Source: a candidate division NC10 bacterium CSP1-5
GTDB lineage: Bacteria > Methylomirabilota > Methylomirabilia > Methylomirabilales > CSP1-5
Length of the DNA: 64,000 bases
Direction of reading: 5' to 3'
Assembly: GCA_001443495.1 (NCBI GenBank)
Contig: LDXR01000015.1
Coordinates: 1-64,000 of the forward strand
Made by a program: the position numbers and the translations under genes
Notes under the pieces: generated by a model
Database searches by the model: none
What the model was told of the DNA's origin: nothing
The model's input: only the letters and a program-made list of their open reading frames with translations
In this document: positions 10,385 through 25,771 of the stretch, piece by piece
How the letters are laid out: every line of letters begins with the position of its first letter
Position numbering within the stretch: position 1 is the first letter of the stretch

Positions 10385-11251
10385 TTAACCTCCTCCCGGA
10401 CGAAGATTCATTCGAACCCAGTCCACATACCCTTTGCGTGGACCGATCTCACCCTTTCCCCCGTCCCAGACGGCGAAGGCCACGAGCATCTCCTCACCAG
10501 GACCCCAGCTGGGATCGTTCGGGTCGCCGGTGACGAAAGGACGGGCGATGACGACCGTCCACTCCCCGTTGGCATAGACCCCTTTGCCGACCGCACTCTG
10601 GCGAGGGGTTGTCGTCACCGTTCCCGGTCCCTCGGCGATCTGCTCTTCCACCGAGACCCGCTTTTGAGGCTGGGAGCGCGGGTTGCCAAGGACCCACCCC
10701 GTCATGTACCGTTGCGCCTCGGGGTTGGTCCAAGCCGTGATGTCGTAGGGTGGCTCACCAGGGACGAATGGATACCAGTCCTCCCACGCATTGGGGTAGA
10801 GCTGAGAGATGTCCTGGAACGTCTTATCAATATCCTCCTGCCAGTCGGCCTTCCAGTGGAATTGCAGGACCGGTCTGCCCGGCTCTCCCATGGCGATGTC
10901 CGTCGATTCTTTCACCGGAACCATGACCGCTACGGCATCCCGGAATTTATCGAGATACATGACCACGTCCCTGGTGGCGTCCTTCCAGACAAGGAGGAAG
11001 GCGATCCATGTCCCGTTGTGGACGGCTTTGATTGTGAGCCCTTTGATGGAGGGGGCCAGGTGCCACGGTCTGACCTGGTCTTGCGGCTTGATGGTTGCCT
11101 GGATGGCCGGCACCCCCTCCCAGCCATTCCAGAGCGGATCCACTGGGATCATGCCCTTGATAAAGGGCGCGTCCAATTGCTGGGTCTCGCCCACCGCGGT
11201 TCCCAGCAGAAGGACAGCGATCCCGAGGGCAAGCTGAAATCTCGTCCGCAT
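10385..11251 (-). CDS. Periplasmic haem b gamma subunit of type II DMSO-reductase-family enzyme (cassette 1)
   Basis: A 288-residue secreted protein with a signal peptide (MRTRFQLALGIAVLLLG) and a beta-rich haem-b-binding domain like EbdC, DdhC, ClrC and NxrC. Typical landmarks are DPLWNGWEGVPAI, VRPWHLAPSI, SVHNG-like AVHNGTWIAFLL, KFRDAVAVMVP and a late AFAVWDGGKGEIG. Such subunits carry electrons from the beta subunit to periplasmic cytochrome c, so the enzyme faces the periplasm. The ATG at 11251 was preferred over the longer frame to 11491 because it begins with the signal peptide and has AAAGGGGG upstream; the extension overlaps the beta gene. Confidence 0.85.
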   Translation of the reverse strand: MRTRFQLALGIAVLLLGTAVGETQQLDAPFIKGMIPVDPLWNGWEGVPAIQATIKPQDQVRPWHLAPSIKGLTIKAVHNGTWIAFLLVWKDATRDVVMYLDKFRDAVAVMVPVKESTDIAMGEPGRPVLQFHWKADWQEDIDKTFQDISQLYPNAWEDWYPFVPGEPPYDITAWTNPEAQRYMTGWVLGNPRSQPQKRVSVEEQIAEGPGTVTTTPRQSAVGKGVYANGEWTVVIARPFVTGDPNDPSWGPGEEMLVAFAVWDGGKGEIGPRKGYVDWVRMNLRPGGG

Positions 11252-11305
11252 CAAAGTACCCCCTTTCCTCAATAAGCGCTCAGCCGAAACGTCACCCCCA
11301 CCGTT

Positions 11306-11328
11306 CCCTCCCCTTTCGAGGGGGAGGG
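11306..11328. other. Intercistronic hairpin between beta and gamma genes
   Basis: CCCTCCCC and GGGGAGGG form an 8-bp GC-only stem with a 7-base loop in the 88-base spacer between the beta and gamma genes of cassette 1. There is no T run, so it is more likely an mRNA-stability or processing element, or a mobile filler repeat, than a terminator. Confidence 0.4.
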
Positions 11329-11339
11329 TTGGGAGAAGG

Positions 11340-12476
11340 TTACGAAATATTGTGGCGGTAGACCTTCCGGGCGTCATCGTAGAACGGCCTGAGATAGTCA
11401 GGCTCGGTGAAGGGCACCCGGACGATCTCCCGCCCCTTCTTGTCGAAGCCCGCCGCCTCTCGGGCCTCCGGGAAGACGGTGAAGGTCTCAACGATCTCCT
11501 TGGTGTCGCCGAAGAGGTGGAGGAGGCCCAGCAGCTCCGGGTCGTCCTTCCCCTTCAGGTAGGTCTCGACGGCCTGATCGACCCCGGTCCCAAACATCTG
11601 GCGGAGGAACTCCCTTGGCACATTGACCGGGGGGATGTAATAGATGTTCCCCTCGAGGCCGACCTGGGGGTAGAGGGGGAGGGCCACTTTCTTCACGTAG
11701 ACCAGAAAGTCCATCGGGGCGTGGGGCTTGACCTCGTCAGGTTTTGAGAGAAACCCCATCAACCGGATCTTGCCGATGCAGGTGGTGACGCACCGAGGCT
11801 GCATCCCCTGCTCAACAGCCGGGTAGCAGCCGATGCACTTTTGGGAGATCCGGAGGACGGGGTTGAAGAGGACCTTCCCGTAGGGGCAGGCTTGAACGCA
11901 CTCCCGGTAGCCCCGGCAGCGGGTCTGGTCCACCAGGACGATCCCATCCTCCTCCCGCTTGTAGATGGCCTGCCGGGGGCACGAGGCGAGACACGCAGGG
12001 TAGGTGCAGTGCATGCAGATCCGTGGGAGGTAGAAGAACCACATGTCGTGGGTCGGCATGGTGAAGTAGGCACCCTTGTCGAGCGTGCCGGCCGCCTCGT
12101 CCTCCCCGGCGTTAGAGTGGGTCCAGTCGAGTTCCTCCTTCAGATAGCCGAGGACCTTCTCCCCCCGAGGGGCCGCCTCAAAGATCGTCTTCCCCACGTA
12201 CTTCTTCCCCTCCCACGGCTGAGGCCCCAGCTTCTCCAGGATCCTGACGTCCCACCCCATCGGGTAGCCGCCGTAGGGCTTGGTCTCCACGTTGTTCCAC
12301 TGCATGTACTCCTGCCCCTTCCCCACGGTCCAGGTGGTTTTGCAGGCCATGGTGCAGGTCTGGCAGCCGATACACTTGTTCAGGTCGAAGACCGCGGCGA
12401 ACTGCCGCTTCGGTCTGGCCCCCTCGTAGGGGTACTCCATCTGCCGCTCGATCTGCCAGTTATAGACGTTCGCCAT
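11340..12476 (-). CDS. Iron-sulfur beta subunit, NarH/NxrB-like (cassette 1)
   Basis: A 378-residue protein with the four cysteine groups of NarH/NxrB/DdhB subunits: CIGCQTCTMAC, CMHCTYPACLASC, CRGYRECVQAC and CIGCYPAVEQGMQPRCVTTC. The third group has Tyr where a fourth Cys would sit, the pattern that gives a [3Fe-4S] cluster (Trp in NarH). There is no signal peptide, so it would be exported together with the twin-arginine alpha subunit. It is about 50 residues shorter than the cassette 2 beta subunit; the shortening falls mainly between the first and second cluster groups. It lies three bases after the alpha gene. Confidence 0.9.
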   Translation of the reverse strand: MANVYNWQIERQMEYPYEGARPKRQFAAVFDLNKCIGCQTCTMACKTTWTVGKGQEYMQWNNVETKPYGGYPMGWDVRILEKLGPQPWEGKKYVGKTIFEAAPRGEKVLGYLKEELDWTHSNAGEDEAAGTLDKGAYFTMPTHDMWFFYLPRICMHCTYPACLASCPRQAIYKREEDGIVLVDQTRCRGYRECVQACPYGKVLFNPVLRISQKCIGCYPAVEQGMQPRCVTTCIGKIRLMGFLSKPDEVKPHAPMDFLVYVKKVALPLYPQVGLEGNIYYIPPVNVPREFLRQMFGTGVDQAVETYLKGKDDPELLGLLHLFGDTKEIVETFTVFPEAREAAGFDKKGREIVRVPFTEPDYLRPFYDDARKVYRHNIS

Positions 12477-12479
12477 CGC

Positions 12480-15400
12480 TTATCCCCTCCTGATGAAGAA
12501 GGCGCCCTTCAGGTAGCGCTTCACCGCTTTGTTCTCATAGGTCGGGCGGAAGCCGTGGGCCGCTGGGTGCCAGAGACCCTTTCCTCCGATCCCCCCCTCC
12601 TCGGCCTTCTGAATCTTCGCCATCGACTCTCTCGGTGCCCCGATCACCGTATGGACATCCGCCAGGAAGCCCTTGCCGATCAGCTGGCCGAAAACCTCCT
12701 TCCTCACCAATGAGTCGGTGGAGAGGGTCGGCCGGAGCCACGCCCGCGTCACGGACTGGTGGCTCCCATACCGGAACAAGGCCTGGTAATTCGTCGCCGG
12801 ATTCTTGGCCAAGCCGTCAGGCCTCGACTCGTGGCCTTTGACCGAGCCGTGGCTCGCCCCGTACATGTTGAACCACATCCGGACCACGCCACGTGGGGTG
12901 CCGGGGTAGTACCGGGCACGGCACATCATGCGGGAGACCTTGTACATGGCATCCCCGGGTTTCCAGCCCCGGTAGGGGCGGTCCTCGGCCCAGCCGTCCA
13001 CCCAGATGTAATCGCCGTCCTCGATTCCGAGGGCCTTCGCGTCCGCGGGGTTGATATCGGCGTACCCCTCAGCGAGGAACGGCATCCGCTTGTCCCGGCG
13101 GTAGACGTCACTGAAGGGTCCGAAGACCATGGCCAGGAAGTCCGTGTCGGTCCCCGTCGTGTGGGCACCGTGGCGGTACTTCGGGGTATGAAAGATAAAG
13201 GGGTAACCGGCCTTGACGAGCGGGCTCGGGTGCTTCTTGAGCACCTCCCAAGGCATCACCAGGGTCAAGACCTGGCGGACATCGGACTTGGCAAAATCCT
13301 GAGGCGAGATGCCGAACTGATCCGGCGGGATCGGCCGGACAGCCGGATGAGGTTTCGCCACGATGACGCTCGGCTGGTAGAAGGTCGCCTCCACCGGCTC
13401 CTTGTAGACCAAGAGGTTCTCCCCGAGGGTGATGAACTCGTCCTCCTCCCGGTAGAACTCGAGCCGCCCGGTCTTGGTGTACCAGGGCTTCGATTCGTTG
13501 GTCTGCTCCCACCCAGTCTGTCTTGGCGTCGTCCGGGTCATCATCAGGGTGGGAATCCCATCGCGGGCTCGCGTCTCCAGCTCCTCGAAGCGGTACCCTC
13601 TCGTCGCGTTGGAGCCGCTCAAGATCCGGTTGAGATACACCTCCACCCGCCCCTCGTGGACGAACCTCCAGTAGTCCAAGAAGCGCTTATCCCCGGTCAT
13701 CTTGGCAAGGACGGCGGAGATGCCCGCCGGCACCTCGACATCGGACCGGGTGTCGAAGAGCCTTGGGTGCGGCGTCCGCGGATAGACGGTGAGGAAGGGA
13801 TTCGTCACCGAGGCCGTCATGTCCGGGAATTTGAACTCGTTCCATGCATCGACCGGGAAGACGATGTCCGAGTACTCGCAGGTCATCGTCCACCACCACT
13901 CGCTGGTGGCCCAGAGCTCGATCTTCGGCAGCGTGTTGGCGATGACGTCGTAGGCCCCCTTGGCGTTTCCCAGGATCGAGTTGCTGTTGGTGACGAAGAC
14001 CGCCTTGGTGGGGGTCGGGATGTGGGTCTTTCCGGTGAACAGCTTCGTCCCCACCCTGAGAGGCCGATCACCGGCGTTATAGTAGTGGACCGACTCCCCC
14101 TTCCAGTAAAGGCGGGGGCGCGCCGGCTTGGTCAGGTCCAGCTCGATGTCGAACGGGTTTTCGCCAATGTACTGGGGGAGGCCGTTGAAGAGGGCGGCCC
14201 GGTAGTTTCCGGCGTAGCTCCCTACGTTTCCACCCTTCTGGCCGATATTGGCGGTCAGCGCCGCTACCAAGAAGATGGCGCGGTCCTTAAGGTCGGCGTT
14301 GAAGAACTGGTTGGGCCCCATCCCCACGGGGATCAGTGTCCTGGCCTTGTGCTTGGCGATCTCCCGGGCGAGGCTCACAATCGCGGCCTTCGGGGACCAC
14401 GTCATCTCCGAGACCTGATCGGGGGTAAAGTTCTCGTCCAGGTAGCGGCGCATCAGGGTAAAGAGCGGGGCAACTTTCACCTCCTTGCCGTCAGTGGTCT
14501 TGACGGTGAATTCCCCTTCGAGCGCCGGATCGAGACCCGCCCGGTCGAAGTGCTCGCCCACCTGATCGCGGGAGAGGGGCTTTGCGCCGCCGCTCTTCCG
14601 GTCCCACACCACGAGGTCCCCCCACTCTTTCCGAAGCCCCTCCGGAATGAGCTGCTTCTCCTGCAGGGCGAACGGCGGCGGGGCTTGGCCGGCCTTGAGG
14701 ACGGTGGTGAAGTTGGTGAGGTCGGCCGGCTGATAACCCGGGATCACCTCGCCGGCCCTCAGGAGCTTCAACGTGTCGAGGCGCACCAAGAGTGGCAGGT
14801 CGGTGAAGCGCTTGACGAAGGCCTCGTCGTAGCGCTTCTCGGCGATCAGGACCTGGGCCAGGCCCAAGGCGAAGGCGGGGTCGGTTCCCGGCCGGATGAT
14901 GATGACCTCGTCGGCCTTGGGGGCCGTGGCGCTGTACTCCACGGACACCACCACCACCTTGGTCCCCTTGAGACGCGCCTCGGTGAGCCAGTGGCTGTCC
15001 GGCATCTTCGTCGCGATCCAGTTCATCCCCCAGACGATGATGAGCCCAGCATGTTCCGCCGCGGACAAGTCGAAGTCCACCGTTTGCTGGCCGGTGACCA
15101 TGGGGTGACCGGGCGGCAGATCGGTGTGCCATGAGTAGTTATCCCACCCGCGGGCGCCCAGGGCCTTGTCGGGGCCAGCCTTGCGAATGTGGCTGTCCAG
15201 AAGGGCGAGGGCATTTCCGAAGCGGTAGTGGCCGTAGATCCGGGTGGCGCCCAGGAGCGGCATCCCGCCACGGACCTTCACCGTCTGGGTGCCGGCTCCC
15301 TGGGTCGCCTCCACCATGGCGGGGTCGTACCCCTGGCCGGTGAGGAGGGCCTGGCCCGCCTCGCCGCTGTAGGTCGTGGCGATGTTCACCAGCCCCTTCG

Positions 15401-15944
15401 CCGCCACCTCCAGCGCCCGATCCCATGAGACCTTCACCCACTCGTCGGTACCGCGCTGGAAGAACTCAGCCGGAGGCCGGCCATCGGCATCACGGGGAAA
15501 CCCCTGCTCCACCCATTTGAGGAATCCCCGTCTCACCATCGGGGCCTTTACTCGGCGATCGCCATAGAAACGGCGCATCATGGTGAGCCCCTTCTGGCAG
15601 CAGCGAGGCTCCCACCGGTGCGTCGCTTTGTTTCCATACAGGTCCGTAGCCTTGCCGTAGCCGTAGGTGGGCTCGATCCTGACGATCACGCCATTTCTGA
15701 CATAGGCTTCCAGGAGGCAGTTGTGGGTATCGTTGGGGGCGCAGAGAAAGACGAACTTCGAATCGTGCCGCCAGATGTCCCGGTAGACAAGCTCCCAGTC
15801 CCGGCTTGGATAGTGGGCCAAGGGGTTATCGACCTTGACCGGCTCCAGGAACTGACCGAACGCCTCTTCAACATCGTAAAGGGAGGCTGTCGTGGCTCCA
15901 ACCGTGATGAACTTGAGGAAGTCACGCCTGCTCAACTGACCCAT
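12480..15944 (-). CDS. Molybdopterin catalytic alpha subunit, type II DMSO-reductase family (NxrA/NarG-like, cassette 1)
   Basis: A 1154-residue protein with a twin-arginine signal (SRRDFLK, residues 5-11), so a periplasmic enzyme. The N-terminal cluster motif is C68-x3-D72-x3-C76 with C115 or C116 later; the middle ligand is Asp where NarG has Cys. HTDLPPGHP with D275 aligns with the Asp that ligates molybdenum in NarG, which places it in the Asp-ligated type II group (nitrate, nitrite, chlorate, selenate, DMS, ethylbenzene enzymes). The substrate cannot be told from sequence: it is clearly diverged from the cassette 2 paralogue and need not be a nitrite oxidoreductase. A strong ribosome-binding site (GAGGAGGGA) precedes the ATG. 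Confidence 0.88.
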
Positions 15945-16290: not shown

Positions 16291-17916
16291 CTATCGCCCC
16301 TTCTCAATCTGCAGGCGCTGCCAGACCGAAACCGTCTTCTGTCCATCCCGATCCCCCTGGGCGCCGTCCCAGACCGCAAAGGCCACGGGGAGGGACTGGC
16401 CCGGAGTAAATTGCGTATCCCGGTCGCCCTGCGACTGCATCTCCCTCACCATGACGACCCGCCACTTCCCTCCCTTCCAGATCCCGCGCCCCTGCACGTT
16501 CTGGTCCTCTGTGGGTTGGGATGTCAGCGTGCCGAAGCCCAAAGCGTTCAGGTCCTCCACTGATGAGCGGCGATTTGGGGTCGAGAGAAGGTTGCCGGCT
16601 CCCCAGCCAGTGAGGAACGTCGAATCGTGGGAAGCCGTCGGTGCCTTCACCTGGGCGGTGACCGAGCTTCCTGGGGGGGCGGTTTGATTAAAGGGGTAAA
16701 GGTCAGCCGCCATTCCAGCGTAACGGTCCTGGAGATCCCGGTACCGTTGCAGGTCGGCTTCCCAATCCGCCTTCCAGTGCCAGATGTTGACCGGGCCGTG
16801 CTGATCCCCCATGGTGAAGGAGGGTTCCGGGTGGCCTGCGCCGTGAACCTCGGCCATCGCGACGGGGAATTGAACGGCGACGGCGTCCCGGAAGTCCTGT
16901 GACCGTAATACATCCTGATTGATGATCGAATCATCCCACTCCAGGAGAAATGCGATCTGCTTTCCGTTGTGGACGGATCTCACCCTCACCTCTTCGACCG
17001 GTTGCTTGCGGATCCAGAGCGGTTCGAGGTGGACCCGGACAAAAGGAATCTTCGACCACGCCACGGCAAAGGGGTCGAGGGGGAGACTGCCCGGCACGAA
17101 CCTCGAGACGACGGTCCCGGGCTGGCTCGGGGCCGGCTCCGTCAAGGGCGCTTTCGCCAAGGAGAGGGTGTAATAGGCGAGGGCCCACGTCTCTTCCGGC
17201 GTGAGGGAGTCACCGTACGCGGGCATCGGGGTGCCGCCGATCCCCACCTGAAGTGTCCGGTAGACATCCTGCACGGTGGAACCACGTTTCATACGCCCGG
17301 GAACCGTAAAGTCGTACGGGACGATGGAGTACCCCCATTCGTCCTTCAACGTGGCGGCGGAGGGGCCATCCCCCTTGCCGGAGAGCCCGTGGCAGTCGAA
17401 GCAACCGGCCTCTTTGTAGAACTTCTTCCCGAGGGCCAGCAGTCCGGGGCTCCGCGGTGGCGCCTTCGGGATCGCCACCGGATCTCCGGGGCTCTGTGCC
17501 TGGAATACCGGCGAAAGACTCTTGATGTAGGCCACCACCGCCCACCGGTCCTGCTCGGTGAGGGCGGCCCAGGAGGGCATCGACGTCCCGGCGATCCCAT
17601 TGGTGATGCTGTTGAACAGGTCCTGATCGGTCGGCAAGGTCATCGTCGAGTGGATCTTGAACCGGCCGCTGGTGAAGTCCCTCGGCTTCGGGTAGAGGAG
17701 ATACGCGGCAGACCCGTCCCCCCGCCCATCCGTTCCGTGACAGACGGCGCATTTCTTTTCATACAGTGCTTTGCCCTCAGCGAGGATTTCTGGGGTTGCT
17801 TGCGCCTTCTCCCCCGCGGTGGCCGATAGGATCCCGTGCATAGCGAACCCGGCCAAGGTAAAAACCAACGCCATCCCGATCCCCCTCCAGACCTTGGCTC
17901 CCCTCTTCGCGTCCAT
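16291..17916 (-). CDS. Fused di-cytochrome c / haem b gamma subunit (NxrC-like, cassette 2)
   Basis: A 541-residue secreted or anchored protein (hydrophobic segment about residues 12-30) combining three domains: cytochrome c with CAVCH at 56-60, cytochrome c with CFDCH at 171-175, then a haem-b gamma domain (about 270-541). The last domain shares the motifs of the cassette 1 gamma subunit (DPFAVAWSKIPFVRVHLEPL, SVHNGKQIAFLLEWDDS, DFRDAVAVQFP, AFAVWDGAQGD). The fusion would let electrons pass from haem b to two c haems in one polypeptide. The ATG at 17916 shares a base with the chaperone stop codon (TAATG), a strong sign of coupling; a longer start at 17946 is possible. Confidence 0.88.
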   Translation of the reverse strand: MDAKRGAKVWRGIGMALVFTLAGFAMHGILSATAGEKAQATPEILAEGKALYEKKCAVCHGTDGRGDGSAAYLLYPKPRDFTSGRFKIHSTMTLPTDQDLFNSITNGIAGTSMPSWAALTEQDRWAVVAYIKSLSPVFQAQSPGDPVAIPKAPPRSPGLLALGKKFYKEAGCFDCHGLSGKGDGPSAATLKDEWGYSIVPYDFTVPGRMKRGSTVQDVYRTLQVGIGGTPMPAYGDSLTPEETWALAYYTLSLAKAPLTEPAPSQPGTVVSRFVPGSLPLDPFAVAWSKIPFVRVHLEPLWIRKQPVEEVRVRSVHNGKQIAFLLEWDDSIINQDVLRSQDFRDAVAVQFPVAMAEVHGAGHPEPSFTMGDQHGPVNIWHWKADWEADLQRYRDLQDRYAGMAADLYPFNQTAPPGSSVTAQVKAPTASHDSTFLTGWGAGNLLSTPNRRSSVEDLNALGFGTLTSQPTEDQNVQGRGIWKGGKWRVVMVREMQSQGDRDTQFTPGQSLPVAFAVWDGAQGDRDGQKTVSVWQRLQIEKGR

Positions 17917-18683
17917 TAGTCTTCCTCCCTTGGCTCGACGGCGCACAGATCGTCCATTCCACAGGAGAAGCAGCCCCCTTCAGGCTCCTGGGGAATTGGC
18001 CTGACATCTCCCTCGTGAAACTGAGCAGGGTTCACCGCGATCCGCCGGCATTCGGCGGTGATGAACGCCTCCAGGGACGAGCCCACAGACCGATAAAAGC
18101 CGTCCGAAGCCTTCCGACTCAGGAGCTGCGCAAAGAGGGGGGCCCAGCACCCGAGGTGCTCCTCCAGAAACTTCCGCTGGGCATCACGGCAGATCGAGGC
18201 CTTCTCTTCCCCGTGGTGGGTCAATGCATAGGCCTCCTTAAGGGTTAGAAAGCTCATGAACTCCAGTTCGACGGCGATGTGGTCGAGCCGCTCCTTGGCC
18301 CGGTCCGACACCTCGACGCCGAAGGCCCGGTAGAAACCGGCAATGTCACCTAACCGCTGGGCCTGCTGAAAGACGTGGGCGCTGCCGTATTCGGTCTCGT
18401 AGGGAGGACATTCCTGCGAGATGGTATGGCCGAAAATCTGCCGATATTGCCCCTGAAGAGCGTCCAGGGACAAGTCGTGCGAGGCCATGGCCGTCAACGC
18501 CTCCTGTGCTCCGTCACCATCGAGGAGGGCCGGGAGGATCGGGCGTAGCTCAGAGATGCTTTCTTTCGTAATGCCCGAAGGGAACGCGTCATTCGGGTAG
18601 AGGAGGGCAGCCGAGAGGAGCCGATAGACGTGACTCCGCGTTATCGCTTCGTGAATCGCCTGTTCAGTTATTTTCCCCGCCAT
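17916..18683 (-). CDS. TorD/NarJ-family molybdoenzyme chaperone (cassette 2)
   Basis: A 255-residue helical protein with the family core ECPPYETEYGSAHVFQQAQR, FYRAFGVEV and DHIAVELEFMSFL. It is paralogous to the cassette 1 chaperone, sharing the same order of motifs. The C-terminus carries CFSCGMDDLC, a likely metal or cluster site. It would mature the cassette 2 alpha subunit before Tat export. It lies about 110 bases after the beta gene and is coupled by TAATG to the downstream gamma gene. Confidence 0.87.
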   Translation of the reverse strand: MAGKITEQAIHEAITRSHVYRLLSAALLYPNDAFPSGITKESISELRPILPALLDGDGAQEALTAMASHDLSLDALQGQYRQIFGHTISQECPPYETEYGSAHVFQQAQRLGDIAGFYRAFGVEVSDRAKERLDHIAVELEFMSFLTLKEAYALTHHGEEKASICRDAQRKFLEEHLGCWAPLFAQLLSRKASDGFYRSVGSSLEAFITAECRRIAVNPAQFHEGDVRPIPQEPEGGCFSCGMDDLCAVEPREED

Positions 18684-18793: not shown

Positions 18794-20083
18794 TTAGATA
18801 GAGTTCGGATGCTTCGCGGGCCGTGTATAGACCGGTTCCTCCACCGTGAGGCGCGCAACCTCTGTACCGTTTTTGTCAAAGCCGATGACCGTATCGTTGT
18901 ACATGCTCCAGGGCTTACCGTTGATCTCTGTTTCGAAGACCTTCTTGCCTTCGACGATTTCGTAGCGGAAGATGATCTTCTGGGTCGACCGGAAGAGCTG
19001 GAGAACGGCCAGCAGCTCTCGGGACGGGGCCATGTATTTGTTGACAGCGTCGTCTGCCCCGGGACCGAACATTTGCCGCAGATATGCGCGGGGAACCCAC
19101 CGGGGCGGCATATAATAAATGTTCGGCTCGGTCCCAAACTGCGGATAGAGGGGCAGGGCGACCTTTTCCACCTTGACCAAGAAGTAGAGGGGATTTGCCC
19201 GATCACCGGCCCAGTCTCCGGTGGTCTGGTCGATCCGGGCCAGGCCCTGGAGTCGGATCTTGCCCACGCAGGCGGCCATGCAGCGCGTTTCGATGGGGAC
19301 GCCGTCGGGGGTGATGTGCGGGTCCTTCCCTTCGATGCGCGGGTAGCAGGCGACACATTTTTCGCTGACGCGCGTGGTGCCTCGGTACATCGCCTTCTTG
19401 TAGGGACACCCCTCGACGCACTTTTTGTACCCGCGGCACCGCGACTGATCGATCAGGACCACCCCGTCCTCCTGTCGCTTGTAAATCGCCTTCCTCGGGC
19501 AGGCCGCAAGACAGCCGGGATAGGTGCAGTGGTTACAGATCCGCTGGAGGTGGAAGAACCACGTCTTGTGTTCCGGGAGCGAGACCCCCTCCTTGCTGAA
19601 CCCCATGCGGTCCCCTTCGTACGGCGGCGCGGTATCCTCGAAAATGTTGGGGGCCCGCCACTCCTCGTCACCGGGGATGTACCCGAGCGCCCGGGTGTGC
19701 CCCTCCGGCCCGTATCGTTTGACGGCCGCCTCGAAGATGGTCATCCCCTCAAAGACGCCGTAGGGCCTCTGTGCTCCATCCTTCTGGGAGGGATCCCAGG
19801 CGGCCTCGCGTCCCTCGCGCTGGTGGGCCTCGTCGAGCAGTTGCAGCAGCTTCATGTCCCAAAACTGGGGGTAGCCGCCGTACGGCTTGCTTTCGACGTT
19901 GTTCCACCACATGTATTCCTGGCCCTTGGAAAACGTCCAGGTACTCTTGCAGGCCATGGTGCAGGTCTGGCAACCGATGCAACGATTGGTATTGAAGACG
20001 GCGGCGAACTGCCAGCGGGGATGCCGTTCCTCGTACGGGTAGTGCATCTTTCGGCCGAGCTGCCAGTTGTAGACCGTGGGCAT
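18794..20083 (-). CDS. nxrB: Nitrite oxidoreductase-like beta subunit (cassette 2)
   Basis: A 429-residue Fe-S protein that reads like the periplasmic-type NxrB of Nitrospira/anammox bacteria from the first residues (MPTVYNWQLGRKMHYPYE) and has the length usual for that group. Cluster groups: C35-IGC-QTC-TMAC45, CNHCTYPGCLAAC, CRGYKKCVEGC (Tyr in place of one Cys) and CVACYP...CMAAC. It relays electrons from the molybdenum subunit to the haem gamma subunit. There is no signal peptide; export by hitch-hiking on the Tat-targeted alpha subunit is expected. It follows the 91-residue small gene by 24 bases. Assignment as nitrite oxidase versus nitrate reductase is inferred from overall resemblance. 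Confidence 0.88.
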   Translation of the reverse strand: MPTVYNWQLGRKMHYPYEERHPRWQFAAVFNTNRCIGCQTCTMACKSTWTFSKGQEYMWWNNVESKPYGGYPQFWDMKLLQLLDEAHQREGREAAWDPSQKDGAQRPYGVFEGMTIFEAAVKRYGPEGHTRALGYIPGDEEWRAPNIFEDTAPPYEGDRMGFSKEGVSLPEHKTWFFHLQRICNHCTYPGCLAACPRKAIYKRQEDGVVLIDQSRCRGYKKCVEGCPYKKAMYRGTTRVSEKCVACYPRIEGKDPHITPDGVPIETRCMAACVGKIRLQGLARIDQTTGDWAGDRANPLYFLVKVEKVALPLYPQFGTEPNIYYMPPRWVPRAYLRQMFGPGADDAVNKYMAPSRELLAVLQLFRSTQKIIFRYEIVEGKKVFETEINGKPWSMYNDTVIGFDKNGTEVARLTVEEPVYTRPAKHPNSI

Positions 20084-20107: not shown

Positions 20108-20383
20108 TCAAGGCTCCCGAGGGCTGTCCGTCCCTGGAACGCTCCACCGCGATCGCATTTCCTCGATCAAGGCCCTGACGTACTGCTCTCCCTTCTGCTG
20201 GTAAATGCGATGGGTGCCGGCGTAGAACGGGCTCTGGAAGAGAGAGAAGAGATGCGCGTCGTCGAGCCCCATCTTGACGAACTCTTCAACGATACACGCT
20301 GCCATCTCCTCGACATCCCCGTCGGGCAGGGCCGTACCGACTAGCTCCATCGGATCGTCATCTTCAAACGGCTTTTCCCCCAT
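20108..20383 (-). CDS. Small acidic protein between alpha and beta genes, unknown function
   Basis: A 91-residue soluble protein without Cys, signal peptide or membrane segment, acidic at the N-terminus (MGEKPFEDDDPMELVG) and helical in the middle (MAACIVEEFVKMGLDDAHLF contains its only Cys). The sentence LFQSPFYAGTHRIYQQKGE suggests a folded domain. I do not recognise the family. Its position, 23 bases after the alpha gene and 24 before the beta gene, with coding-like composition, makes it a real operon member. A role in assembly or maturation of the alpha-beta pair is a guess from context. Confidence 0.7.
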   Translation of the reverse strand: MGEKPFEDDDPMELVGTALPDGDVEEMAACIVEEFVKMGLDDAHLFSLFQSPFYAGTHRIYQQKGEQYVRALIEEMRSRWSVPGTDSPREP

Positions 20384-20406: not shown

Positions 20407-23400
20407 CTAGCGTTTCTTGATCTGGACAATCTCCCCTGCCAGGTAGCGCTTCATGAAGTCGCTTTCGTTCCCGGGTGTGAACCCCGTCCGGGCGGGCTCC
20501 CAGATTCCTTTGCCGCGCATCCCTCCGTCCTCCGCTTTGGTGACCTTGACCAGCGTCTCCTTGGGGACGGTGTTGAGGGCATGGTTGTCTGCCTCCCCGC
20601 CGAAGAGAAAGCTCATGGTCGCCTTGGCCTTGTGGAAGAGGGTGTCGGTCTGATGCATCGGCATATGCCAGTTGCGGGTAAGGGATTGCTGGGAGCCGTA
20701 CCGAAGATTGGCCTGGTAGCCGGTTTCGGAGAGGGCCAGGCCGTCGGGCCGGGTCTCGTGTGCCTTGACGGTCCGCTCCGTTGCGATATAGGGGGCATGC
20801 TTCATCATCACCACCTGGTAGGGATAGGCCGGGTTGTACCTCACCCGAACCATGCAGCGGCTCACTCGGTAGAAGGGGTCGCTCGGCTTCCAGCCGATGT
20901 AGGGACGATCGGCCGGGTTAGCATCCAGGTAGACGTAGTCGCCGTCATTGATGCCGAGGTCCTTGGCCGCCTGGGGGTTCATATGCAGCTGGTGATCGCC
21001 CACGCCGGGCATCCGCTTGTCCATCCGGTACGGATCGCCGAAGTTCGAATCCCAGATCTGGTTCCAGTCACACACCGACCACTGCGAGTGGACCCGGTGA
21101 CGGGTCTTGGGAGTCAGGAAGAAGAACCGGTAGCCTTTCTCCCACAGGGGGTTCGTGGTCCGCTTCGCGTCGGCCCACGCCATCTTGATGTTCCGGACCG
21201 TCCGCTCGTCCCAATGCATCGCATCCGGCGAGATGCCGTAGTCCTCGGGACGGATATACGGGTTCGTACTCACGATGACGTTGGGAAGATACGGGGTCGC
21301 CTCCGGGCCCTCCCGCTGCACGATGAAGTTTTCGCCGTACTCGATGGCCTCGGGGATGTCGCAGTAGGCGTGGAGCCTCCCCGTGTCGGTGTAGAAGGGG
21401 TCGCTGTCGTGGACCTGCTCCCAGAAGGGGACCCTTGGATAGGTCCGGAAGAGCATCAGGCAGGCGCCGGGCTCTCCGTACTTGCCGGCCATGATCTCGT
21501 CGACCCGATAGCCCGCGGTCGTGGAGGAGGTGTCGAGGAGCTTCTGGATGTAGACCTCCGGCCTTCCTTCGAGGGCGAAGCGCCAGTACGCCGCGAACCG
21601 GTGGTCGTTGACGATCGCGCCGAGCTTCTGGGCCAACTCGGCCAGGATGGTCACATCGTCCTTGCTGTCGTAGAGGGGCTTGATGCCCCCTTTCCAAATC
21701 TGGAGGAAAGGGTTGGAACAGGAGGCGGTGATCTCGGGGGTCTGGAATTCCATCCAGGAGTTGGCCGGCAGGGCGAAGTCGGCATACTCGATGGAGGCGG
21801 TCATCTCGATGTCCACGGAGATGATCATCTCCACCCGGGGATTGACGTTCTTCAGCATTTCGTAGACATGCTTGGCGTTGTTAATCAGGTTCACGTTGTT
21901 GAAAAACATCACCTTGGTGGGCGTAGGCATGTGGGTCAGCCCGGTGAACACCTTCCGGCCGTACTTGGGCGTGTTGACGATCAGCGGCAGATCCCCGTGG
22001 TTCCAGTAGGCCGGCTCCTCGTCCTTGGTGTACCCCTTCACCTTAACCGCCTGGCCCGGGGCATTCGGATCGAGGTTGGGGTTAAAGGGATCCTCCGCGA
22101 CCCACCCCTTGAAGCCGGGCCCACTCCAGGAGGATCCCTGGAAGAGGGCCGCCTTGTAATTCCCCGCCCAGGTATGGGAGCCCGCTCCCGGGACCCCGAT
22201 GTTGCCGGTGAGCATCAAGGGGAGGTAGAAGGCCCGGTTAGACAGGGTGGCGTGGAACCAGTGGTTGATCCCCTCGCCGATATGGATGGCCACCGGCTTG
22301 ATGGTGGCGATGTCCCGGGCGAGCCGCTGGATGAGCTCCTTCGGGGAATGGGTGATCTCGTGGACCGTGTCGAGGTCGTAGTCCTTGAGATGAATTGTGT
22401 ACATGGCCCACAGGGTCATCGCCTCGACCTCGGTCCCATCTGCGAGTTTGACCTTCCCCTGCCAATCGAGGGTCGGGTCGGTTCCCTGCTGGGCGAGCCT
22501 GTCACCTACGTCTTCTCTAGTGAGGGGCTTCAGGCTTTGGCTTTTTGCATCGAAGACAACAAAGTCCCCGAGCTTCTCGTACTGCTCCTTCGTGAGACCC
22601 TGGATCGTGAAGCTGGGGCCGTTCTCGGGCAGCCGCCCGCGATATCCCGGGAAGACCTCGTGGGCCCTGAGCCGTTTGAGGGTGTCCGTCCGGACAAGGA
22701 GCGGGAAATCGGTGAAGCGCTTCACGAAGGCCGCGTCGTAGTGCCTCTCCTCCATGAGAATTTTGGTGAGGCCCAGGAAGAGGGCGGTATCGGTGTTGGG
22801 GCGGATCGGGATCCAGTAGTCGGCCTTGGCGGCCGGAGGGCTGTATTCTGGCGTGATAACCACGATCTTCGCCCCGCGCTCCATCAGCTCGTTAAAGAAA
22901 TGGGACTCGGGCATCTTGTTCTCGATCAAGTTTTTCCCGCACTGGATGTGGAGCTTCGAGAAGCGGAAGTCGTTAAGGTCGACGTCGGACCCCTGCAACC
23001 CATGGGAGTAAGGATGGCCCGGCGCCTGATCGCCGTGCCAGGTATAGTTCGACCAGGTCCGGCCGCCGAGCGCCTGATCGGGTCCCACGCCCCGGACATG
23101 GACATCCAACAGGGCCAGCGTGTTGGCAAAGCGGTACATGCCATACTTTCCGATCACGCCCAGAAGGCCCATACCGCCGCGGCACTTGAAGGTCCGCGTC
23201 CCCGCCCCGTGCGTCTCTCGGATCATCTCCTCCGGGTATCCTTGCTCGCGCAGGCGACGCACGCCCTCTTCGCCGCTATAGCGCCTGGCAATCTGGATCA
23301 TCCCCTTCGCAATGTACGAGTACGCGTCGTCCCAGGAGATTCGCATGAGTTCGTCCGTGCCCCGACTGTCGAACCTGTACTTGGTCTTGTTTGCGGGCGT

Positions 23401-23850
23401 CAGGTCGGGGAAGCCGTCGTCGGCCCACCGCTTCCAGCCTTTACGGACCAAGGGGTATTTCACCCGGTAGGGACCGTAGACCCTTCGGTGCAACGTGTAT
23501 CCCTTGAGGCATCCCCTCGGGTTCCAGTGGGGGGTTGCCTTGTTGCCGTAGAGGTCGGCGTAGCGGCTGACGTCGTAGTTCTGCTCGATCCGCATCACCA
23601 CGCCGTTTCGGACATACGCCCTCAGTCGGCAGGCATGCGTATCGTTGGGCGAGCAGACGAAGGTAAACGTGCGATCGTAGCCGTACTGATCCCGGTAGAT
23701 CCGTTCCCACCCTCGATCCGGGTACTCCGAGAGGGGATTGCCCACCTCGACGGCGGGCTGGAGCAGCCGGAGAGCCCAGGCGTCATCGGCGAGGAAGGCG
23801 GTGGCACCGGTCGCGGCCGCTTTCAGAAAAGTCCTGCGGGTGATTTCCAT
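20407..23850 (-). CDS. nxrA: Nitrite oxidoreductase-like molybdopterin alpha subunit (cassette 2)
   Basis: A 1147-residue periplasmic-type catalytic subunit with a twin-arginine signal (TRRTFLK, residues 4-10). The N-terminal cluster motif is C66-x3-D70-x3-C74 with C114 later, Asp replacing a Cys as in cassette 1. TWHGDQAPGHP places the molybdenum-ligating Asp at D274. Segments such as GKNLIENKMPESHFFNELM resemble what I recall of Nitrospira and anammox NxrA, as does the length. It would oxidise nitrite to nitrate in the periplasm, or run in reverse as a nitrate reductase; sequence alone cannot fix the direction. AAAGGGGGATG precedes the start. It is separated by 91 bases from the metalloprotease gene. 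Confidence 0.88.
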   Translation of the reverse strand: MEITRRTFLKAAATGATAFLADDAWALRLLQPAVEVGNPLSEYPDRGWERIYRDQYGYDRTFTFVCSPNDTHACRLRAYVRNGVVMRIEQNYDVSRYADLYGNKATPHWNPRGCLKGYTLHRRVYGPYRVKYPLVRKGWKRWADDGFPDLTPANKTKYRFDSRGTDELMRISWDDAYSYIAKGMIQIARRYSGEEGVRRLREQGYPEEMIRETHGAGTRTFKCRGGMGLLGVIGKYGMYRFANTLALLDVHVRGVGPDQALGGRTWSNYTWHGDQAPGHPYSHGLQGSDVDLNDFRFSKLHIQCGKNLIENKMPESHFFNELMERGAKIVVITPEYSPPAAKADYWIPIRPNTDTALFLGLTKILMEERHYDAAFVKRFTDFPLLVRTDTLKRLRAHEVFPGYRGRLPENGPSFTIQGLTKEQYEKLGDFVVFDAKSQSLKPLTREDVGDRLAQQGTDPTLDWQGKVKLADGTEVEAMTLWAMYTIHLKDYDLDTVHEITHSPKELIQRLARDIATIKPVAIHIGEGINHWFHATLSNRAFYLPLMLTGNIGVPGAGSHTWAGNYKAALFQGSSWSGPGFKGWVAEDPFNPNLDPNAPGQAVKVKGYTKDEEPAYWNHGDLPLIVNTPKYGRKVFTGLTHMPTPTKVMFFNNVNLINNAKHVYEMLKNVNPRVEMIISVDIEMTASIEYADFALPANSWMEFQTPEITASCSNPFLQIWKGGIKPLYDSKDDVTILAELAQKLGAIVNDHRFAAYWRFALEGRPEVYIQKLLDTSSTTAGYRVDEIMAGKYGEPGACLMLFRTYPRVPFWEQVHDSDPFYTDTGRLHAYCDIPEAIEYGENFIVQREGPEATPYLPNVIVSTNPYIRPEDYGISPDAMHWDERTVRNIKMAWADAKRTTNPLWEKGYRFFFLTPKTRHRVHSQWSVCDWNQIWDSNFGDPYRMDKRMPGVGDHQLHMNPQAAKDLGINDGDYVYLDANPADRPYIGWKPSDPFYRVSRCMVRVRYNPAYPYQVVMMKHAPYIATERTVKAHETRPDGLALSETGYQANLRYGSQQSLTRNWHMPMHQTDTLFHKAKATMSFLFGGEADNHALNTVPKETLVKVTKAEDGGMRGKGIWEPARTGFTPGNESDFMKRYLAGEIVQIKKR

Positions 23851-23941: not shown

Positions 23942-24862
23942 TCAACGCGTCCCCTGGCAGACGGTATATCCTTCCACGCATCGCTCGCACGCGCCGAGCT
24001 CCGGTTGCCATTCCGGAAAGTCACACTGGATCAGTTCCACCAGCGGGAGCGGGATCTCTCCGCTTCCCTGTCGGAAGGACCGGGAGGGGAAGCGGCAGAG
24101 CGGGCAGCGGGAGCCCGGGAGCGAACGAATGGTCCCCTCCCACGCCTCGAAGAGGGCTCGACCCGGCTCGGTCGCCATTTCCAAGAGTTGCGGGTGCGAT
24201 GGCCGGGGCATGTCCCAGGTTCGTCTAAAGGCCTTCTCCAGCAAGGGAGCGGGAACTCCCCGGTACTGGGCCTCGAACTCCGCCCGGCGTTGGGCCTCGG
24301 CGGCGACCGTCTCGCGCCCAGCCTGGATGAGGCGGCTATCGATGGTGATGTCCCACAACAGGCGGTAGCGATCTCGAACGAGCGGCTCCTCGGCTAGGTG
24401 GATCCCGGGAATCCCCTCGGTGTGCTCATAGGCGAAGGTCGGATCCAGCACATCGCTCAGGTGGGTCAGCTCGTGGCGGAGGAGTCGGGTGAGACTGAGC
24501 GGGTCAAGAAAGCGACGAGGGAGCAGGCGGAGGATCGCTGCGGTCCGCCCTGGAAACTGCAGGTCGGCCCCTTCATCCCTAGCGCCCGGGGCCCGCACGA
24601 CCCACAGGGTCTGGATGTGCTCGCGAAGCTCGGGAAACTCCGTGAAGGCCGCTTCGATCGGCGCCGCAAGATTCCACCGGCGGAACAGGCGTCGGTGGAT
24701 CTGCTGGAAAGCCTCCTCACGCGCGGCGAGGTCGAGGCGGTATGCGGCATCGGTGAGGGCGTGGTACTCGTGGGTAAAGTGCAAATCACCGGTCGCCTCG
24801 CGTTCCTGGATCAGCGCCGAGACAACCGCATCGAGGAGGACCGGCTCATACCGAATCTGCAT
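23942..24862 (-). CDS. Putative zinc metalloprotease with C-terminal zinc-ribbon, unknown family
   Basis: A 306-residue soluble protein. HELTH at residues 130-134 is a zincin-type HExxH motif placed in a helix (LTRLLRHELTHLSDVLD), followed about 40 residues later by WDITIDSRLIQ, where a third ligand could lie. The C-terminus has paired cysteines, CPLC (253-256) and CERC (292-295), plus C280 and C302, as in a zinc ribbon. I do not recognise a named family. Its start overlaps the Rrf2 regulator by 17 bases, and the nxrA-like gene follows 91 bases later, so regulator, protease and enzyme are probably one unit. Maturation or quality control of the molybdoenzyme is plausible but unproven. Confidence 0.75.
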   Translation of the reverse strand: MQIRYEPVLLDAVVSALIQEREATGDLHFTHEYHALTDAAYRLDLAAREEAFQQIHRRLFRRWNLAAPIEAAFTEFPELREHIQTLWVVRAPGARDEGADLQFPGRTAAILRLLPRRFLDPLSLTRLLRHELTHLSDVLDPTFAYEHTEGIPGIHLAEEPLVRDRYRLLWDITIDSRLIQAGRETVAAEAQRRAEFEAQYRGVPAPLLEKAFRRTWDMPRPSHPQLLEMATEPGRALFEAWEGTIRSLPGSRCPLCRFPSRSFRQGSGEIPLPLVELIQCDFPEWQPELGACERCVEGYTVCQGTR

Positions 24863-25271
24863 CCTCTCCTCCGTTCTGGGCCAGGCTGGCGAGGGTCATG
24901 GTCTCCAGGAACTCGGTGAGGTAGGGCTTGATCTCGCGCCAGCCGGCATGAAGAAGGCACGGGTTCCTGTCACCGCATCGACGCCCCCAGAAGATACAGC
25001 GTTCGGTGAGATCTGCTCCCTCGATCGCCTCCAGCACCTCCCGGAGGCGGATCTGGGAGGGGGCGCGGGCCAGGCAATACCCGCGCTGACGTCCGCGGAA
25101 AGACTGGAGCACTCCGTGCCGCGCAAGCTTCTGAAGGGTCTTGGCCAGGAAGCCGACCGGCAGATCCTTCGCCTCGGCGATCTGGTGCAGCGTCAGGACC
25201 GTCGCCGGCGGCTGCTGAGCCAAGTAAATCATGGCCTTCAGTCCGTATTCGCTCTCGCGGCTGAGATGCAT
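24846..25271 (-). CDS. Rrf2-family Fe-S transcriptional regulator
   Basis: A 141-residue Rrf2 protein. The N-terminal winged helix (MHLSRESEYGLKAMIYLAQQ, then IAEAKDLPVGFLAKTLQKL) is typical, followed by RGYCLARAPSQIRLREVLEAIEG. Three cysteines at C92, C99 and C105 plus H108 form the cluster-binding segment, as in IscR, NsrR and RirA. Such proteins sense NO, iron or Fe-S status. Located directly upstream of and overlapping the metalloprotease gene in the NXR-like operon, it is the best candidate for a regulator of cassette 2; NO or nitrite-derived stress is a natural signal. The exact subfamily cannot be settled from sequence. Confidence 0.9.
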   Translation of the reverse strand: MHLSRESEYGLKAMIYLAQQPPATVLTLHQIAEAKDLPVGFLAKTLQKLARHGVLQSFRGRQRGYCLARAPSQIRLREVLEAIEGADLTERCIFWGRRCGDRNPCLLHAGWREIKPYLTEFLETMTLASLAQNGGEDADSV

Positions 25272-25771
25272 GGGGCTCCCCTGCCATCATCAATAATGAC
25301 TGTAGCTGTCACGCCCTGAGGTGGCGAGGAGAGGACCGGATAGTCGAGGGAATGCCCTGGCTCGATCACACCACGATGAAGGAGGGAATAGTGCCGGTAG
25401 CGCGCCGGCATGTGGGATCCGACCGAGGCGATCCCCATTACGAGCAGAAGGAGCGCCACGCGGGCTTCCCAGAAGAAGGGGATCACGAGCAGGAGGGCGA
25501 GCTTGACCAGCACCATGATCCCCTTTCCCAGGAAAACCCAGTAGAAACCAACCGCATAGATCTCTAGTGCCATCAGCCCCAGGCCACTGAGGATGGTGAG
25601 GTAGAGGGACACCAACAGCCTTTCCGCTTCAACGCCAAAGGTGTGACCACCCAGTAGTATTCCAAAGGCGGCTAGGTGAACGGCGCGCAACGCGATGGAC
25701 ATCGCCCGTGATCGGGGCAGGAAGCGCATTCGCTCGGGAAGAAACCAGCGACGTCCTCCCTCAATCATCAT
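25238..25771 (-). CDS. Polytopic membrane protein, unknown
   Basis: A 177-residue frame with about four hydrophobic helices (AVHLAAFGILLGGH, LYLTILSGLGLMALEIYAVG, FLGKGIMVLVKLALLLVIPF, VALLLLVMGIASVGSH), resembling DUF4149/CopD-like small membrane proteins without a diagnostic motif. The N-terminal start is uncertain: Met codons at 25771, 25729 and 25702 are all possible. Its C-terminal end (last 11 codons) overlaps the Rrf2 start by 34 bases. Composition of the overlap suggests the tail is unstructured. It is likely the first gene of the regulator operon. Confidence 0.6.
   Translation of the reverse strand: MMIEGGRRWFLPERMRFLPRSRAMSIALRAVHLAAFGILLGGHTFGVEAERLLVSLYLTILSGLGLMALEIYAVGFYWVFLGKGIMVLVKLALLLVIPFFWEARVALLLLVMGIASVGSHMPARYRHYSLLHRGVIEPGHSLDYPVLSSPPQGVTATVIIDDGRGAPCISAARANTD

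Follow-up and report, generated by a model that had tools for sequence, protein, structure and literature searches.

A predicted zincin-like, zinc-ribbon protein encoded in the operons of one type of nitrite oxidoreductase is a candidate maturation factor

The 64,000-nucleotide stretch of contig LDXR01000015.1 from the candidate division NC10 bacterium CSP1-5 that was analysed here (the window) encodes a 306-residue protein of the kustd1701 family, which is specific to one type of nitrite oxidoreductase (NXR). This protein is probably a dedicated maturation factor, involved in assembly or proofreading, of the Kuenenia/Nitrospina-type NXR and would act together with the TorD-like chaperone of the same operon; we give this reading a probability of about 0.6. 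NXR is the source of nearly all biological nitrate and carries Mo-bisMGD and five Fe-S clusters, plus a heme subunit. In the literature, we found no account of the assembly of its cofactors and heme subunit.

The family gene belongs to the first of two NXR-like operons of the window (Table 1). It shares 17 bp with the gene of an Rrf2-family regulator, and a gap of 91 bp separates it from nxrA, the next gene downstream, which is followed by orf91, nxrB, torD and nxrC. The original prediction, made from the sequence alone, described a protein combining HExxH with two CxxC pairs, its gene overlapping that of an Rrf2 regulator with cysteines C92/C99/C105 and lying directly upstream of an nxrA-like gene. 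All these elements were found: HELTH occupies residues 130-134, C253/C256 and C292/C295 form the pairs (the protein has cysteines at 253, 256, 280, 292, 295 and 302) and the three cysteines of the regulator were located. Homologues of the 177-residue membrane protein encoded upstream lie close to the family gene in three other loci (L036, L039 and L078). The product of orf91 has no match in Pfam; this gene is present in most clusters and was not detected in those of Brocadiaceae or of the Nitrospinota-like phylum described below.

Table 1. Coordinates of the genes of the window and of related genes in other loci (locus given before the colon)
Feature	Position	Strand	Description
Hydrophobic membrane protein	25238-25771	minus	177 aa; overlaps start of Rrf2 gene
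Rrf2-family regulator gene	24846-25271	minus	141 aa, ATG start; C92/C99/C105 + H108, E8
kustd1701-family gene	23942-24862	minus	306 aa, ATG start; NXR-linked zincin-like/zinc-ribbon protein
nxrA	20407-23850	minus	Tat signal RRTFLK; Kuenenia-type NXR alpha subunit
orf91	20108-20383	minus	91 aa, conserved, between nxrA and nxrB
nxrB	18794-20083	minus	Iron-sulfur subunit, DMSO reductase type II beta
TorD/NarJ-like chaperone	17916-18683	minus	PF02613 above cut-off; top match TIGR03482 under cut-off
nxrC-like protein	16291-17946	minus	Cytochrome c domains + ethylbenzene-dehydrogenase heme b domain
nxrA2	12480-15944	minus	47% identical to first nxrA
nxrB2	11340-12476	minus	Second NXR-like operon
Heme-b subunit	10385-11491	minus	Second NXR-like operon
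Stand-alone zincin-like cores	L226:6592-7242, L227:8164-8889, L248:5059-5751		Ribbon absent, HExxH intact
Scalindua-like ribbon protein	L219:4141-4770, L220:8050-8661, L242:11113-11721		~200 aa

We considered an NXR as being of the Kuenenia/Nitrospina type when its NxrA shares about 60% identity or more with Kuenenia NXR-A and has the FS0 ligands, which in Kuenenia are C67/D71/C75/C115 (PMC8387239). The NxrA encoded by the window matches Kuenenia NXR-A (PDB 7b04) over its full length (1960 bits), its first 584 residues being 68.7% identical, and the segment CSPNDTHAC, which holds three of the four FS0 ligands, is conserved. Judged by its sequence, it is thus a Kuenenia/Nitrospina-type NXR. The second, paralogous operon of the window (10385-15944, minus strand) means that two NXR types are encoded by one genome. 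Members of the paralogous nxrA group are 42-47% identical to the first nxrA and 38-43% to that of Kuenenia, and the Nitrotoga/Hydrogenobaculum NXR group is about 40% identical to Kuenenia (PMC8387239). By identity, this paralogue, including nxrA2 of the window, is therefore nearest to the Nitrotoga/Hydrogenobaculum type.

The kustd1701 family was defined by full-length homology, covering N-terminal helices, a core with the HExxH position, a helix with WxxxxDxR and a CPxC/CxxC ribbon; the window protein shows this homology and sits in an NXR operon. The family is absent from Pfam and NCBIfam: no model of either collection is significant for the window protein, and no Pfam model is for any of 17 homologues. 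A search of contigs returned a single close relative, from a 'Candidatus Methylomirabilis sp.' MAG. In genome collections, 28 of 95 Methylomirabilota genomes have homologues (three of them as ribbon-only matches), as do 51 of 77 from a Nitrospinota-like phylum, 63 of 392 Planctomycetota genomes (a count that includes stand-alone-core and ribbon-only matches) and genomes of further phyla. The Planctomycetota label relies on the many PF07596 proteins of the genome at the centre of the group (G229) and on a Kuenenia match inside the group. We infer that the second phylum is Nitrospinota, since two single-contig genomes have two nxrA copies each and another (G335) has an extra nxrB adjoining the family gene, in agreement with the two NxrA copies of Nitrospinota strains and the extra NxrB of Ca. 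N. vancouverensis (PMC8026999).

Linkage to NXR was assessed for 75 family genes in their genomic context. For 68 of them, an NXR structural gene or torD is found on the same strand at a distance of no more than 1.5 kb, in Methylomirabilota, anammox and other Planctomycetota, the Nitrospinota-like phylum and further phyla; four of the seven unlinked genes are at contig ends. The commonest nearest neighbours are torD immediately upstream (38 genes) and nxrA immediately downstream (19). The original prediction expected homologues to be tied to molybdoenzymes, and this holds for the full-length, ribbon-bearing family: the only zincin-domain relatives found away from NXR operons are shorter and lack the ribbon. 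Co-occurrence is also strong. In a sample of 290 genomes tallied by hand, 32 have both the family and NXR, three the family only, seven NXR only and 248 neither (Fisher 2e-32, a value that overstates independence since the genomes are related); in five of the seven NXR-only genomes, the contig is cut inside or beside the operon. Likewise, among 294 Planctomycetota genomes and with NXR counted at 62% identity or more, these numbers are 38, two, three and 251, respectively. The family is hence a conserved companion of NXR in anammox bacteria, probably in marine nitrite oxidisers, and in others.

This association concerns one NXR type. The Nitrotoga/Hydrogenobaculum-like paralogue operons examined, the second operon of the window among them, yielded no family gene, and nearly all genomes having only the paralogue are devoid of a full family gene, the exceptions being G074 and G089, whose family genes are near contig ends. 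In two genomes (G244 and G142), the surroundings of a complete NXR operon contain no family gene, and 10 Planctomycetota genomes whose NxrA is intermediate (57-60% identity) lack it as well, showing that NXR can be made without the family protein. The Nitrospinota-like NxrA, at 60% identity, does have the family gene, so that the border is not set by identity alone. Loss is also seen in a genome of the same genus in which NXR was not detected (G002): an Rrf2 ORF (L081:8372-8998) continues in frame into a match to residues ~140-169 of the family protein. This ORF marks where an NXR operon used to be, the rest of the family gene and the operon having gone from that place.

Within the protein, E131, H134, D137, W170, D175, R177 and the four ribbon cysteines are invariant in 17 homologues, and H130 nearly so. 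Moreover, homologues with as little as 21-22% identity are still located in an NXR operon; the motif features are therefore not due to chance. The AlphaFold2 model is confident (pLDDT 88.6, 93.9 for the core alone) and begins with helices, which three strands separate from the HExxH helix (121-139); another long helix (156-180), bearing W170, D175 and R177, comes next, and further helices lead to the ribbon. This order of strands and helices resembles that of minigluzincins. The zincin fold envisaged by the original prediction is thus suggested by the position of the HELTH helix after three strands, and no significant match was found in the PDB: zincins (selecase, snapalysin and ADAM-8) are among the top matches of the fold search, with a best E of 0.17 (1.3 after trimming), and profile searches of the PDB gave matches at chance level, including selecase MJ1213 (E 1.1). 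We describe the core as zincin-like. From conservation, D175 or D137 is proposed as third metal ligand, the former being favoured in our preferred reading, and the C-terminal ribbon putatively binds zinc.

An active metalloprotease that trims a peptide of NxrA or NxrB, or degrades cofactor-less NxrA before export, is the alternative that fares best, and we consider it unlikely. It would agree with the position of HExxH in the model, with the sub-threshold metallopeptidase signals in sequence (M76, M91 and WLM) and fold, and with a motif that is intact in 52 of the 75 members, including every anammox (Brocadiaceae) gene fetched and the stand-alone relatives. However, the motif is common and not universal in the family, being broken in 23 of the 75; the conservation of HELTH among homologues, which the original prediction set as a check, thus holds in part. 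Its first histidine is replaced, mostly by arginine, in at least 18 members, belonging to several Rokubacteria-like genomes, one Nitrospinota-like genome and other phyla, nearly all within NXR operons. In G123 and G270, both histidines and D175 are lost. Across these losses, D137, W170, R177 and the ribbon cysteines are kept. In a phylogeny with 39 rows, the best tree requires four changes, at least three of them forced by well-supported branches, and at least three losses took place within NXR operons. Other sites are maintained: E131 in 73, D137 in 74, W170 in 75 and R177 in 71 of the 75 members, and the ribbon cysteines in at least 67 of the 68 members that have a ribbon. Proteolysis therefore cannot be the function common to all members, whereas binding can. 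Furthermore, the NxrA of the window and that of Kuenenia align end to end (1147 vs 1148 aa), leaving no obvious cleavable extension. Of the protease or metal-insertion factor initially proposed, an obligate protease is thus unlikely after three to four independent losses, and the tie to the NXR operon stands.

The protein was compared with several known families, of which the SprT-like zincins with a ribbon, FdhE and WLM were rejected on profile scans. Peptidase M76 (Atp23) reached at best E 8e-4, in three of 34 members, and stays below the curated cut-off of PF09768: the window protein has no match and the Kuenenia member scores 12.3 bits against a cut-off of 25.2. The WLM profile matched one of 34 members (E 0.12), and scans of single members and alignments gave no SprT match among the families listed. 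Selecase and the minigluzincins (MJ1213) provide the best trimmed fold match, over a stretch of some 75 residues that includes the HExxH helix, as well as a weak profile match; the match is not significant (E 0.66-1.3) and selecase is a much smaller protein. FdhE is a dedicated accessory protein of a Tat-exported, Mo-bisPGD-containing periplasmic formate dehydrogenase, with an operon-linked gene and CxxC pairs (PMC10609526). It thereby resembles the window protein in enzyme-dedicated role, gene linkage and metal-binding CxxC pairs, but it has four CX2C motifs instead of two pairs, and no profile match was obtained with single members or alignments. FdhE is not known to have HExxH. Atp23 is a zincin that processes a subunit and separately assists the assembly of a large complex (PMC8877559). 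The family shares with it the faint M76 signal and the HExxHxxD-like motif; unlike the family, Atp23 is mitochondrial, and it is not known to have a zinc ribbon. By these tests, the window protein is a member of neither; FdhE would be its nearest analogue by role and Atp23 by logic, i.e. separable processing and assembly. The TorD/NarJ/NxrD chaperones are encoded in the same operons and have the same proposed substrate; their sequence is unrelated to that of the family protein, and both occur side by side here.

Both halves of the protein also have relatives elsewhere. Stand-alone cores lie, in one Planctomycetota family, downstream of mfd and of a gene for a SurA/PrsA-like peptidyl-prolyl isomerase. 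For those of f265, assignment to a molybdoenzyme operon, with neighbours of ~1100 and ~350 aa, was discarded, these neighbours being Mfd and the isomerase. Small proteins of ~65 aa (L080, L146, L147 and L148) have the ribbon (CPLC...HPxW..xDGxCxxCxxxY) by itself, and in L145 it is fused to DUF1003, which makes it a mobile module; the L148 copy matches nothing in Pfam. All these proteins share the ribbon and not the core and were left out of the family. In Scalindua-like genomes, an extra protein that has this ribbon and starts with a signal-like stretch is encoded between nxrB and torD.

The Rrf2 protein is a genuine member of its family, with matches to PF02082 (E=1.1e-31) and TIGR00738 and three conserved cysteines. 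Its scores are under every NCBIfam equivalog cut-off (IscR 68.8 vs 207.6 bits, NsrR 45.7 vs 182, RirA 47.4 vs 193), and C92/C99/C105 with H108 (and E8) would fit sensing of NO, Fe or Fe-S alike. A regulatory role of the family protein, whose ribbon would sense metal, NO or redox jointly with Rrf2 to control the operon, is improbable: despite the gene overlap in the window and the adjacency in several Methylomirabilota loci, where C92/C99/C105/H108 are conserved, most loci, those of Kuenenia and the Nitrospinota-like phylum included, have no adjacent Rrf2 gene, no DNA-binding domain was recognised in the family protein and its large conserved core is not a known sensor. Since Rrf2 adjoins the family gene in a minority of the loci searched, mainly in Methylomirabilota, we regard the pairing as local wiring. 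Hence, of the maturation and control module originally predicted, maturation fits NXR operons of at least three phyla and the regulatory half is weak, even though a real Rrf2 gene overlaps here.

Data on Kuenenia bear directly on the maturation role. In one genome (G452), NxrA is identical to Kuenenia NXR-A (7b04) over 584 residues and the gene order is nxrC-nxrB-torD-family gene-nxrA. As just two genes separate nxrA and nxrB, the family gene corresponds by order to kustd1701 and the TorD-like chaperone to kustd1702. The former and the window protein share 32% identity over the full length and have the same motifs. Withholding nitrite lowers kustd1701, annotated as 'unknown protein', 5.5-fold along with the nxr cluster, and kustd1701 is missing from the detected proteins while NXR-A/B/C are detected (PMC6423088). 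Purified Kuenenia NXR consists of A, B and C, and its tubules add NXR-T only (PMC8387239). A scarce accessory factor would agree with these findings. That the protein is instead, in some lineages, a structural or peripheral part of mature NXR, as strict linkage to nxrABC might suggest, is very improbable given these data and the lack of an apparent signal peptide in the family protein, whereas NxrA has a Tat signal. A conserved 'putative zinc finger' protein was reported in 2013 in the NXR clusters of Nitrospina, Nitrospira and Kuenenia (PMC3578206). As kustd1701 has the ribbon, this is probably the same family, its Nitrospira member being known here from that paper alone. These papers do not state the zincin-like core, the repeated decay of its motif, the restriction to one NXR type or the occurrence in NC10.

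A maturation factor best accounts for a protein that has no apparent signal peptide, is encoded near a TorD-like chaperone, is co-regulated with NXR and absent from the purified enzyme, and accompanies one NXR type. It would be co-expressed from the operon with NxrA, NxrB and the chaperone and, as the missing signal suggests, would remain in the cytoplasm. The groove of its zincin-like domain is predicted to bind immature NxrA or the apo-NxrAB dimer, and the structural ribbon would hold its shape or dock it. It could then aid cofactor loading, a role in Fe-S/Mo insertion being proposed by analogy, and/or retain the Tat-bearing complex until complete. The ancestral HExxH site may bind metal and may cleave polypeptides that are misfolded or still precursors; catalytic histidines are gone from several lineages, where the binding role alone would remain, one of two functions as in Atp23.

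Tentatively, a zincin may have been recruited as obligatory assembly factor of one NXR type and repeatedly turned into a pseudo-enzyme, the operon crossing phyla with a two-chaperone kit (TorD-like and zincin/ribbon proteins) where the Nitrotoga type needs one. Anammox bacteria (kustd1701) and the Nitrospinota-like phylum possess a second operon-encoded candidate NXR assembly factor beside the TorD-like chaperone. The family gene is also a marker that tells the Kuenenia/Nitrospina-type NXR from the Nitrotoga type, and its product may be a missing component for the expression of NXR in other hosts.
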